From: Taurinivorans muris
Lineage (GTDB): Bacteria > Desulfobacterota > Desulfovibrionia > Desulfovibrionales > Desulfovibrionaceae
Direction: 5' to 3'
Length of the DNA stretch: 64,000 bases
NCBI RefSeq assembly: GCF_025232395.1
Contig: NZ_CP065938.1
Span: 1,178,001 to 1,242,000, forward strand
The translations under genes and the position numbers were made by a program. The notes under the pieces were generated by a model. The model had not been told where the DNA came from. It searched no databases and saw only the letters and a program-made list of their open reading frames with translations. Below, piece by piece: positions 18,023-20,576 of this stretch (position 1 is the first letter of the stretch; every line of letters starts with the position of its first letter).

Positions 18023-18340
18023 CTAGAGCTTAATTTCCACATCCACGCCGGCTGGTAAGGAAAGCTTACCAAGAGCGTCCACGGTCTGTTGCGTGGGGTC
18101 GAGGATATCCATAAGACGTTTATGAACTCTCATTTCAAACTGTTCACGAGATTTTTTATCTACGTGCACAGAGCGGTTAACCGTGTATTTATGAATATTG
18201 GTGGGCAAAGGAATTGGTCCTGCCACCCCAGCGCCTGTATTGCGCGCTGTATCCACGATTTCCGCCACAGCCTTATCCAGGATGCGATAATCGTAAGCCT
18301 TAAGCTTAATACGGATACGATCACTGCCAACTGTTGTCAT
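18023..18340 (-). CDS. rpsJ: 30S ribosomal protein S10
   Basis: 105 residues: [20 protein letters not shown] and [20 protein letters not shown] are diagnostic. S10 (NusE) is a ribosomal protein and a transcription antitermination factor. The first gene of the cluster, preceded by a leader of at least 100 bases containing three stable hairpins. GGAGATTCGCA precedes the ATG. Confidence 0.97.
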
Positions 18341-18366
18341 TGCGAATCTCCATTTTAGGCAATTCG

Positions 18367-18439
18367 CTCCGAAAGATACTGAAAATTTCTTTCGGAGTAT
18401 CCACCGCCGGATAACGGCGGCCGGTCAATTATCTTGACC
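18367..18439 (-). promoter_or_regulatory. hairpin-rich leader of the S10 operon
   Basis: Three consecutive hairpins upstream of rpsJ: a 10-bp stem CTCCGAAAGA/TCTTTCGGAG (18367-18397), CCGCCG/CGGCGG (18404-18420) and GGTCAA/TTGACC (18423-18439). None is followed by a T run, so they are not simple terminators. In E. coli the S10 leader binds L4 and controls the operon; a similar role here is only an inference. Confidence 0.45.
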
Positions 18440-18619
18440 ATCAAAAAGAAGCAAACAAAAACTCAGGAAATGCCTGCTCCTCATTCCATACACCTTTGTT
18501 ATCAGACAACGACAAAAACCCTCATGCCATCACATAGGGCGACTTTTTATGATTTTTTCCTTTTGAAAAGAGAAGAGAACCAGCCCCACCCGTTTCGCAA
18601 CAAAAATCCATCATAAAAA

Positions 18620-18890
18620 AATAAAGCCGACCCGGGTTTGCCGATCCTGTCCGATACGAAATAACTTCGTAATAGATAGGTGGTCCCACAGGGATCACGC
18701 ATGCACAAGCCTTTTGCTTGTTGGATAACCTTTCAACCCATAAACCGTTGATTTATGCGTTGTCACGGTTGACAATACCGGCATGGTGACGCCTGTAAAT
18801 GTCAAACGTTTTCAATATGTTGAAAACACATTAAGACAAGCTCAACTTGTCTTTCTCTGCTGTCCAGAGATTGCCTCAAGAAGAGGTGAT
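18620..18890 (+). ncRNA. candidate structured RNA of unknown family
   Basis: Within the 670-base gap between rpsJ and hemW, at least eight short stable hairpins follow one another between 18655 and 18886, for example GTGGTCCC/GGGATCAC (18680-18698), AACCCATAAA/TTTATGCGTT with one mismatch (18735-18761), GTCACGGT with ACCG and GTGAC (18762-18790), GTTTTCAA/TTGAAAAC (18808-18827) and TCTCTG/CAGAGA (18854-18870). One pair is G-U on the plus strand but A-C on the minus strand, favouring plus-strand transcription. No open frame is convincing. I could not match it to tmRNA, RNase P, 6S or SRP RNA. Confidence 0.4.
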
Positions 18891-19010
18891 TTGAATATTT
18901 ACCTATTTTTCTTAGTTCTGTCAACTTTTTTTTAAAAAATTTAATTTTTTTCTTGCCTTAATGCTTAAAATTTATTTTTATTTTTTCATACCACTTCGAG
19001 AAAAAAAATT

Positions 19011-20576
19011 ATGCAGCTTTATATCCACGTTCCTTTTTGTGTAAAAAAATGCCATTATTGCTCATTTTATTCCATGCCTGCGGCTTCTTTAAATATTTTG
19101 GAAAATTTTCGTTCCACACTCTCATTAATAGATACATCGGCCGATATTTATGAAGGTATAGAAAAATTCGTCCCTCAAAAAAACCAATCCGTGCAATCGC
19201 TTTCTTCGTTTCTTGTAAATAAAAAACAAGAGATGAGTCCGGACATTTTAATCAATGAGGCAAAACCGAATTTAACCTTGGCTGATGCGTTTTTTTCGCA
19301 GGAGCAGGCTCAGGCCTTACGGAACAAACTCGGCGCCGGCAGGTTTTCAAATCAGCAAACACAAGTGAAAAAAGCGAAACGCCTTGAGCTTCCCAAAGAG
19401 TTTTGTTTTAAATTCATCGAAGAACATCCATTAAAACAAAGCAATGAATTTCATCTTTGGAAAACGACCCTTTTAAAAGAATTGTCCATACTTGCGCAGT
19501 ATTATAAGGAAAATCCCATAACAAGCATTTTTTTTGGCGGAGGCACCCCTTCCTATATACCAATAAAAGATATGGAAGACATTTTATTCTTCATTATCGG
19601 CCATTTTTCTGTTCTGGAAAATTGCGAAATATCGTTGGAAGCAAATCCTGACAGCATTTCCAATATCAAGGCTGTCGCATATAAAAAAATGGGTTTCAAC
19701 CGAATTTCCTTAGGCGTGCAGTCCCTTAACAACAAATATTTGCAAATGCTCGGCCGCCCCCACTCCGCCCATGACGCCCAAAAAGCTTACCATTCACTGC
19801 GTTCTGCCGGTTTTGCCAATATCAGCCTCGATTTTATCTGGGCTGTACCGGAACAGCGGCTCAAAACGTGGCTCGATGATTTGAAAAATGCCGTCAAGCT
19901 GGCTCCGGAGCATATTTCCGCCTATGGGCTGAGCATTGAAGAAGGCAGTTATTTCGACTTGCTGAATAAGGACGGCAAACTCAAATTAGCCTGCGAACAG
20001 GAACAAGCCCAAATGTACAAAACAGGTTCCGCCATTTTGGAAGAGGCCGGCTATATGCAGTATGAGATTTCCAATTACGCCAAAATGGGGTATCAATGCC
20101 GGCACAATCTGGGCTATTGGCTTGGCAGTGAATATCTCGGAGCCGGACCTTCCGCGGCGAGCACGGTCGGAAACATACGCAGGACGCACAGTGCCGATTT
20201 GGAGAAATGGGCGGTTGACATTGCAGCGGGTTTCGCCGCTGACATTGAAGCGCAATCCAGAAATGAAGCATACACGGGCATAAGCAATTATACCACGGAA
20301 CATTTATCCAAAACAGAACGGATTTGCGAGCTTGTCATGCTGAGGCTCCGTACCGTCAAGGGACTGAATGCCGATGAGTACGAAGCGCTGAGCGGAAAGA
20401 ATTTTTTCAAAGAACACAGCAGGTTATTAAAACTTTTGGATAAAAACAATCTCATGCGGATAAAAAACGGCCATGTCTTTTTCACACGCAACGGCATGCT
20501 CGTATCCAACAGCATTTTGGAACATTTTTTCAGAAACATCAAAGAAAACCAAGCCAAACTGACGGCAGGAAAATGA
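19011..20576 (+). CDS. hemW: HemW-like radical SAM protein with a large insertion
   Basis: 521 residues against about 375-400 for typical HemW, a heme chaperone related to coproporphyrinogen dehydrogenase. The radical SAM cysteines C10, C14 and C17 (CVKKCHYC) are present, as is GGGTPS at residue 176 and the C-terminal HemW-specific region (SIEEGSYF, CRHNLGYW). About 158 residues separate the cysteine motif from GGGTPS, where family members usually have about 45-50, so some 110 residues are inserted near the N-terminus. The insert is polar and has no domain I recognise. It overlaps gluQ by four bases (ATGA), so the two form an operon. Confidence 0.85.
   Translation: MQLYIHVPFCVKKCHYCSFYSMPAASLNILENFRSTLSLIDTSADIYEGIEKFVPQKNQSVQSLSSFLVNKKQEMSPDILINEAKPNLTLADAFFSQEQAQALRNKLGAGRFSNQQTQVKKAKRLELPKEFCFKFIEEHPLKQSNEFHLWKTTLLKELSILAQYYKENPITSIFFGGGTPSYIPIKDMEDILFFIIGHFSVLENCEISLEANPDSISNIKAVAYKKMGFNRISLGVQSLNNKYLQMLGRPHSAHDAQKAYHSLRSAGFANISLDFIWAVPEQRLKTWLDDLKNAVKLAPEHISAYGLSIEEGSYFDLLNKDGKLKLACEQEQAQMYKTGSAILEEAGYMQYEISNYAKMGYQCRHNLGYWLGSEYLGAGPSAASTVGNIRRTHSADLEKWAVDIAAGFAADIEAQSRNEAYTGISNYTTEHLSKTERICELVMLRLRTVKGLNADEYEALSGKNFFKEHSRLLKLLDKNNLMRIKNGHVFFTRNGMLVSNSILEHFFRNIKENQAKLTAGK

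Follow-up and report, generated by a model that had tools for sequence, protein, structure and literature searches.

A conserved RNA of about 270 bases, apparently not catalogued, as the predicted leader of the S10 ribosomal-protein operon in Desulfovibrio-type bacteria

What lies between rpsJ and hemW in the genome of Taurinivorans muris (Desulfovibrionaceae)? In the window, that is, the whole stretch of 64,000 nucleotides of contig NZ_CP065938.1 that was analysed, these two divergent genes are separated by an interval rich in short hairpins. A first-pass annotation placed the hairpins at 18620-18890, regarded them as possibly an undescribed structured RNA or a large leader of hemW, and suggested an Rfam search and a covariation analysis as checks. 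Three questions follow: (i) whether the hairpins belong to a genuine RNA; (ii) which strand encodes it; and (iii) which genes it serves. The neighbouring genes are listed below (the names rpsJ, rplC and rplD are presumed from general knowledge of these protein families).

18023-18340, minus strand: rpsJ (uS10), first gene of the operon behind the RNA (open reading frame list; tblastn against related loci)
18023-17382, minus strand: rplC, which follows rpsJ (same evidence)
17369-16737, minus strand: rplD, which follows rplC (same evidence)
19011-20576, plus strand: hemW, starting about 120 nt from the right edge of the hairpin-rich stretch

In the HemW-like protein, the N-terminal cysteine motif is followed by what appears to be a long region of low complexity, and this region aligns poorly with the genus relative G003.

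The annotated coordinates proved right, and the claim of hairpin density was upheld. Counting only non-overlapping perfect stems of at least 6 with loops of 3-8, seven hairpins were found in 18620-18890 (the annotation had mentioned at least eight near-perfect ones); dinucleotide shuffles of the interval contained 0.35 on average and none of 1000 reached seven. The folding energy corresponded to z values of -5.1 on the plus strand and -6.2 on the minus strand, better than all 200 shuffles in each case. Open reading frames within the stretch are short (40-58 aa), no conserved coding frame was seen by informal inspection of the frame list and the related loci, and ARAGORN detected neither tRNA nor tmRNA in the window. 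At gathering score, no Rfam 15 family, with 6S RNA, tmRNA, RNase P and riboswitches among those covered, gave a match in the window or in 14 related loci; a relaxed search of four related loci (E up to 1) gave none either, and one of window positions 18300-19100 (E up to 5) returned two hits, both outside the conserved core and far below gathering score.

Relatives of the stretch were sought at increasing distance. In a DNA search of 59 genomes, its own included, strong matches (75-84% identity) occurred in all four of the other members of the genus, and whatever else matched was short, with E 0.002 or weaker; a search of the genus matched six of six genomes, including the own one and another of the same species. 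Two covariance models were then available: R1, built from the six genus sequences (alignment A5), and R2, built from 16 diverse family sequences (alignment A7). Among 288 Desulfovibrionaceae genomes, R1 matched 127 at E 0.1 and R2 matched 148 at E 0.01 (143 at E 0.0001). The R2 carriers comprise 97 of the 205 high-quality genomes and 16 of the 44 genera; carrier genera include genomes without an R2 match, such as G070. Five of the 148 matches have E above 0.0001 (G170, G179, G181, G183 and G185). Two of these are taken as chance, although still within the 148, namely G185 (E 0.001), where merely 37 nt match in a stretch, L047, without rpsJ, and G183 (E 0.0016), which has no full-length match at its own rpsJ; the genus of both is counted as a carrier solely through these weak matches.

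Beyond the family, hardly anything was found. R2, run over 297 genomes across the phylum, matched nine, of which eight belong to the Desulfovibrionaceae and one (G479, E 0.002) is marginal. R1, run at E 0.1 over 247 genomes of the order, matched 72, all of them Desulfovibrionaceae except the marginal G037 (E 0.06), a match that was dropped because it lies on a different contig from its rpsJ. A weak R2 match in the own genome (E 0.002), considered as a second copy, falls inside a coding frame and is taken as chance. In a pattern scan of named genomes, 62 stretches were obtained, labelled as Desulfovibrio, Nitratidesulfovibrio, Mailhella, Bilophila, Desulfovibrionaceae or Deltaproteobacteria; the core pattern is present in records of Desulfovibrio piger, Candidatus Bilophila faecipullorum and Mailhella sp. 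The reduced genome G069 (main contig of 1,457,619 bases), which we take to be Lawsonia intracellularis, retains a degenerate copy (L052, 714-972; E 4e-10), and a full-length match is kept in G165, presumably a termite-gut endosymbiont (single contig of 1,410,056 bases).

The RNA delimited by these models has the following parts.

18624-18889, minus strand: conserved core of the putative leader, about 270 nt with several helices (R1 and R2 matches, covariation)
18854-18870, minus strand: hairpin P2, UCUCUG/CAGAGA here and UCCCCG/CGGGGA in a sister species
18833-18853, minus strand: P3, the best conserved hairpin of the family, with six of seven pairs compensated across 16 sequences
18808-18827, minus strand: hairpin P4, variable in sequence, with compensatory changes and 81% of cells paired in the family
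18769-18805, minus strand: arms of a likely pseudoknot, UUGACA (18805-18800) and UGUCAA (18774-18769), with conserved complementarity
18688-18796, minus strand: long-range helix P5 (arms 18796-18781 and 18704-18688), which closes the central domain
18734-18762, minus strand: hairpin P7 inside the central domain, with five of six pairs compensated in the family
18655-18671, minus strand: P10, terminal hairpin of the 3' domain and one of the perfect hairpins counted above, with compensatory changes and 78% of cells paired in a partly misaligned stretch

Compensatory changes support this structure at both levels. In the genus, 97.8% of the cells are paired and 12 of 77 pairs are changed on both sides, values that none of 500 shuffles reached; the number of further pair types, reached by 459 of 500 shuffles, does not exceed chance. 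In the family, 88.7% of the cells are paired and 24 of 51 pairs are changed on both sides, a number that none of 500 shuffles attained; sliding the partners by 1-3 columns lowers the paired cells to 36-49%. The two doubly changed pairs of P2 in the genus come from two rows of the same species. As to P5, its core pairs are invariant, and its outer pair, A-U within the genus, is replaced by G-C in the other sequences; several of its pairs fail in part of the family rows, which we read as a one-base alignment shift. One genus helix (A5 columns 117-120 with 128-131) was omitted from the family structure. By eye, L041 and L042 (genomes G066 and G016) have a long insertion in or near P3.

The core probably also contains the pseudoknot UUGACA/UGUCAA, for which conservation is the main argument. 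Of the 37 sequences, 36 allow at least five contiguous pairs, L037 and L058 only with a shift in register, and L050 lacks the pairing. The mean pairing score is 15.9 versus 9.4 for shuffled arms; covariation is weak, the observed mean being attained in 22 of 500 between-sequence permutations. Other pairings came up as well. RNAalifold offers an alternative in which P2 pairs with the 3' arm of P5 (A7 columns 46-61 with 291-300), and in much of the family CCCUGC could pair with either the 3' arm of P2 (GCAGGG) or the 5' arm of P5 (GCAGG). This shared partner hints at a two-state switch elsewhere in the family, one that appears, by eye, impossible in the genus of the window. A pairing of GUUCC in the core with GGAAC near rpsJ, judged by eye, showed no covariation and was set aside.

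The claim of the annotation that a G-U pair favours the plus strand does not hold. Read as the minus strand, the structure contains 36 G-U versus 2 A-C cells over the six sequences of the genus, and 72 versus 26 over the 16 of the family. Since G-U cells exceed A-C cells in this orientation, the functional strand is, on this sequence criterion, the minus one, which reads towards rpsJ and away from the divergent hemW.

The genomic position points in the same direction. Carrier loci were inspected in 58 genomes, and in 57 of them rpsJ follows on the same strand, 76-344 nt downstream (median 243; the shortest distance is that of L138); the remaining locus is the 37-nt fragment of G185. A promoter motif precedes the core, and the linker between core and rpsJ contains several further elements, as follows.

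18896-18924, minus strand: promoter motif with -35 TTGACA (18924-18919), a 17-nt spacer and -10 TAAATA (18901-18896), from the genus alignment
18514-18540, minus strand: candidate intrinsic terminator T1, GCCCUAUGUGAUGGCAUGAGGGU followed by a U run
18438-18480, minus strand: candidate terminator/attenuator T2, a 10-bp hairpin followed by UUUUUGAUGG (-10.5 kcal/mol)
18367-18397, minus strand: hairpin shortly before the ribosome-binding site of rpsJ, with ten of ten pairs kept in six of six rows and hardly varying
18348-18351, minus strand: Shine-Dalgarno GGAG of rpsJ, by direct reading

The promoter motif recurs across the family: each of the 27 rows has TTGAC just before the core, and TA follows the -35 hexamer at a distance of exactly 17 nt (these rows exclude L042 and L046, whose 5' insertions are long). 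A consensus promoter scanner missed TTGACA/TAAATA, its -10 being too far from TATAAT. No conserved second promoter was found between the core and rpsJ. Core and linker together span about 460-653 nt in the 27 rows.

Terminator-like sites occur between core and rpsJ in 18 of the 27 rows, versus 3-11 rows in eight mononucleotide-shuffled sets; the other nine rows have none, so termination may not be universal. The clearest arrangement is that of L045 (-25.4 kcal/mol) and L138 (-20.8), where a GC-rich hairpin and U run stand right before the rpsJ ribosome-binding site and the rpsJ start follows within about 30 nt, with the ribosome-binding site in between. In the genus, the three counted pairs of T1 hold in five of six rows with no compensatory change. 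For T2, 95% of the cells are paired over the six rows, with two compensatory pairs, a number reached by 59 of 500 shuffles when three linker helices are counted together; G003 breaks three of the ten pairs. An antiterminator for T2 (AGGAAUG/CAUUUCC), considered by eye, fails in G003. A GUG..GGAAY-like motif, at 18480-18494 on the minus strand of the window, was noticed by eye before the rpsJ-proximal hairpin in many genera; in many loci it lies about 50-155 nt upstream of rpsJ.

How did such an arrangement originate? Upstream of the RNA, fusA is found in six of the 57 carriers, and in 47 at least 1100 nt upstream of rpsJ are free of both fusA and tuf (for four of the 57, less than 1100 nt of upstream sequence entered this count). 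For comparison, rpsJ loci were sought in 29 selected genomes, of which nearly all lack an R2 match and five belong to different families within the order. rpsJ is present in 26, two of which (G015 and G023) carry the RNA. Among the 24 non-carrier loci, 22 have tuf or fusA upstream of rpsJ, and in the remaining two the contig ends less than 60 nt upstream. Where resolved, the gap before rpsJ is 2 to 244 nt, which leaves little or no room for the RNA; with all filters off, R2 gave in these 24 only fragments or scores below 15 bits (best E 0.0009, over 19 nt). In eight of the 24 loci rpsJ is preceded by fusA but not by tuf, and the RNA is still absent; losing tuf is therefore not enough for it to appear. 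By eye, five fusA-only non-carriers (L154, L156, L159, L160 and L161) have a TTGACA-type promoter and a short spacer before rpsJ, which could represent a parallel stage of operon separation.

In a tree of rpsJ and rplC proteins with 75 rows, all 51 carrier rows lie on one side of a single branch (support 100/97); these represent 50 genomes, G095 appearing twice, and carriers with cut or unclear rplC or rpsJ were omitted. The sister rows of the carrier clade, G018 and G019, are non-carriers: G018 has tuf just upstream, and G019 has, 6 nt before rpsJ, a mostly masked open reading frame ending in EIME, tuf-like by its end. Since the carriers form one clade and its sister rows have tuf or a tuf-like frame before rpsJ, a single origin of the element is most likely, in a line descended from an ancestor with tuf at that site.

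Computational support thus extends to the structure, the strand, the promoter motif, the constant site before rpsJ and the single carrier clade. The most economical reading is that of a transcription-attenuating leader of the S10 operon, and we consider it probable that the stretch is the 5' leader of this operon (rpsJ-rplC-rplD and following genes), with a putative sensor core that would act by attenuation and, most likely, an r-protein as effector. Transcription would proceed leftwards from the promoter at about 18924-18896. The nascent RNA would fold into the multi-helix core of about 270 nt, likely with the pseudoknot, to be followed by a linker that often holds terminator-like hairpins and then by rpsJ. 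The core would act as a sensor that sets the output of the operon through transcription attenuation, and access to the rpsJ ribosome-binding site may be a second control point. In this manner, the leader would probably allow the cell to throttle the production of ribosomal proteins, and the regulation is probably autogenous, by analogy with known systems. Binding of an r-protein to the core is inferred because uL4 acts on the long structured S10 leader of E. coli; by that analogy, uL4/RplD, encoded in the operon, would be the first choice, with uS10 or uL3 as possible alternatives.

Two traits are expected of an r-protein leader: a structure with covariation, here with a family score that none of 500 shuffles equalled, and a same-strand site upstream of an r-protein operon, here found in 57 genomes as a predicted 5' UTR. 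Mimicry of 23S rRNA was also considered. None of 27 leaders aligned to the 23S locus of its own genome better than the best of 40 shuffles; this was a local sequence alignment to one such locus with its flanks, and structural mimicry remains compatible with it. The own genome gave four 23S matches.

The rival that survives best is a free-standing, trans-acting small RNA of the 6S or CsrB kind, with its own promoter and terminator, which would merely happen to lie upstream of the S10 operon. The promoter motif, a weak terminator-like site at the 3' end of the core in the window, and the discreteness of a strongly conserved unit of about 270 nt would all suit it. Nevertheless, it is an unlikely reading: the site before rpsJ in 57 of 58 carriers (bar the 37-nt fragment), the restriction of carriers to one clade, the absence of a conserved second promoter for rpsJ, the mere 76 nt that separate core and rpsJ in L138, and the lack of an Rfam match all count against it. 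Rather improbable, too, is a new category of sensor RNA, that is, a pseudoknotted leader of about 270 nt whose signal would be a metabolite, a tRNA or an assembly intermediate in place of an r-protein; it would set the output of the S10 operon and would have arisen once in the Desulfovibrionaceae as that operon split from the str operon. A metabolite riboswitch before the S10 operon, responding for instance to a growth-rate signal, is more doubtful still. The RNA resembles riboswitches in its size, its likely pseudoknot and its nearly invariant motifs, and no rRNA-like sequence was found; but it stands before a single ribosomal operon in all 57 genomes measured and is found in one family, a pattern typical of r-protein leaders, and no Rfam riboswitch was matched at gathering score, the only relaxed listing being 2dG-II at 18368-18419 (E 1.9), outside the core and on the other strand. 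Finally, a plus-strand leader of hemW, suggested by the proximity of that gene and by a plus strand that folds well too, as any inverted repeat must, is very hard to sustain against the 36:2 bias for the minus strand, a promoter motif that points the other way, and the occurrence of hemW beside the RNA, among 40 loci, only in the genus of the window.

The two options of the annotation can now be told apart. An undescribed structured RNA is supported by the lack of an Rfam 15 match at gathering score and by compensatory changes across genus and family. The idea of a leader also stands, with the S10 operon in place of hemW as its target, given that rpsJ lies downstream on the RNA's own strand in all 57 carrier genomes measured. 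The gap thus appears to hold a genuine and conserved RNA, about 270 bases long and apparently uncatalogued, predicted to head a ribosomal-protein mRNA in Desulfovibrio-type bacteria.

Interpreted as an S10-operon leader, the element adds a large, strongly conserved RNA family without an Rfam 15 match in a bacterial family that includes gut sulfidogens. It also offers an evolutionary case, in which an operon once behind tuf or fusA would have gained a promoter and a complex leader once in the sampled tree. In addition, it may show how the supply of ribosomal proteins is controlled in a lineage for which the searched literature yielded no such leader: no title on an S10 leader in Desulfovibrio was found there (most subscription journals lay outside its scope), and the main text of a 2020 survey of r-protein leaders, which names Deltaproteobacteria for an L20 leader and Firmicutes for S10 leaders, contains no occurrence of Desulfovibrio (PMC7247131).

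Three known systems are closest: (i) the S10 leader of E. coli; (ii) the rpsJ leaders of Firmicutes; and (iii) the autogenous leaders of B. subtilis. The E. coli leader is described as long and structured, with a Rho-independent terminator, and as the site of uL4-dependent transcription attenuation and translation control (PMC10931766). The present RNA resembles it in that the S10 operon would be preceded by a long and structured 5' UTR containing a terminator, here a candidate one, and differs in its core of about 270 nt, its likely pseudoknot, its core and linker of about 460-653 nt and the absence of an Rfam family; uL4 dependence is a feature of the E. coli leader and, for that of the Desulfovibrionaceae, a possibility drawn by analogy. 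The leaders of B. subtilis L20 and L10/L12 place alternative structures and an intrinsic terminator before r-protein genes (PMC10931766). The present RNA would resemble them in such structures and in its candidate terminators; the operon and the protein are different, and any antiterminator here would be hypothetical. Structured RNAs in the rpsJ 5' UTR are likewise represented by the motif RLC-47-1, reported in a 2024 survey from three genera of one clostridial family, the Peptostreptococcaceae (PMC11109978), and by the S10 r-leaders of Firmicutes (PMC7247131); these belong to another phylum, and the comparison with the present RNA rests on their descriptions. The best reading is, then, that of a new, lineage-specific leader within the known class of r-protein operon leaders.
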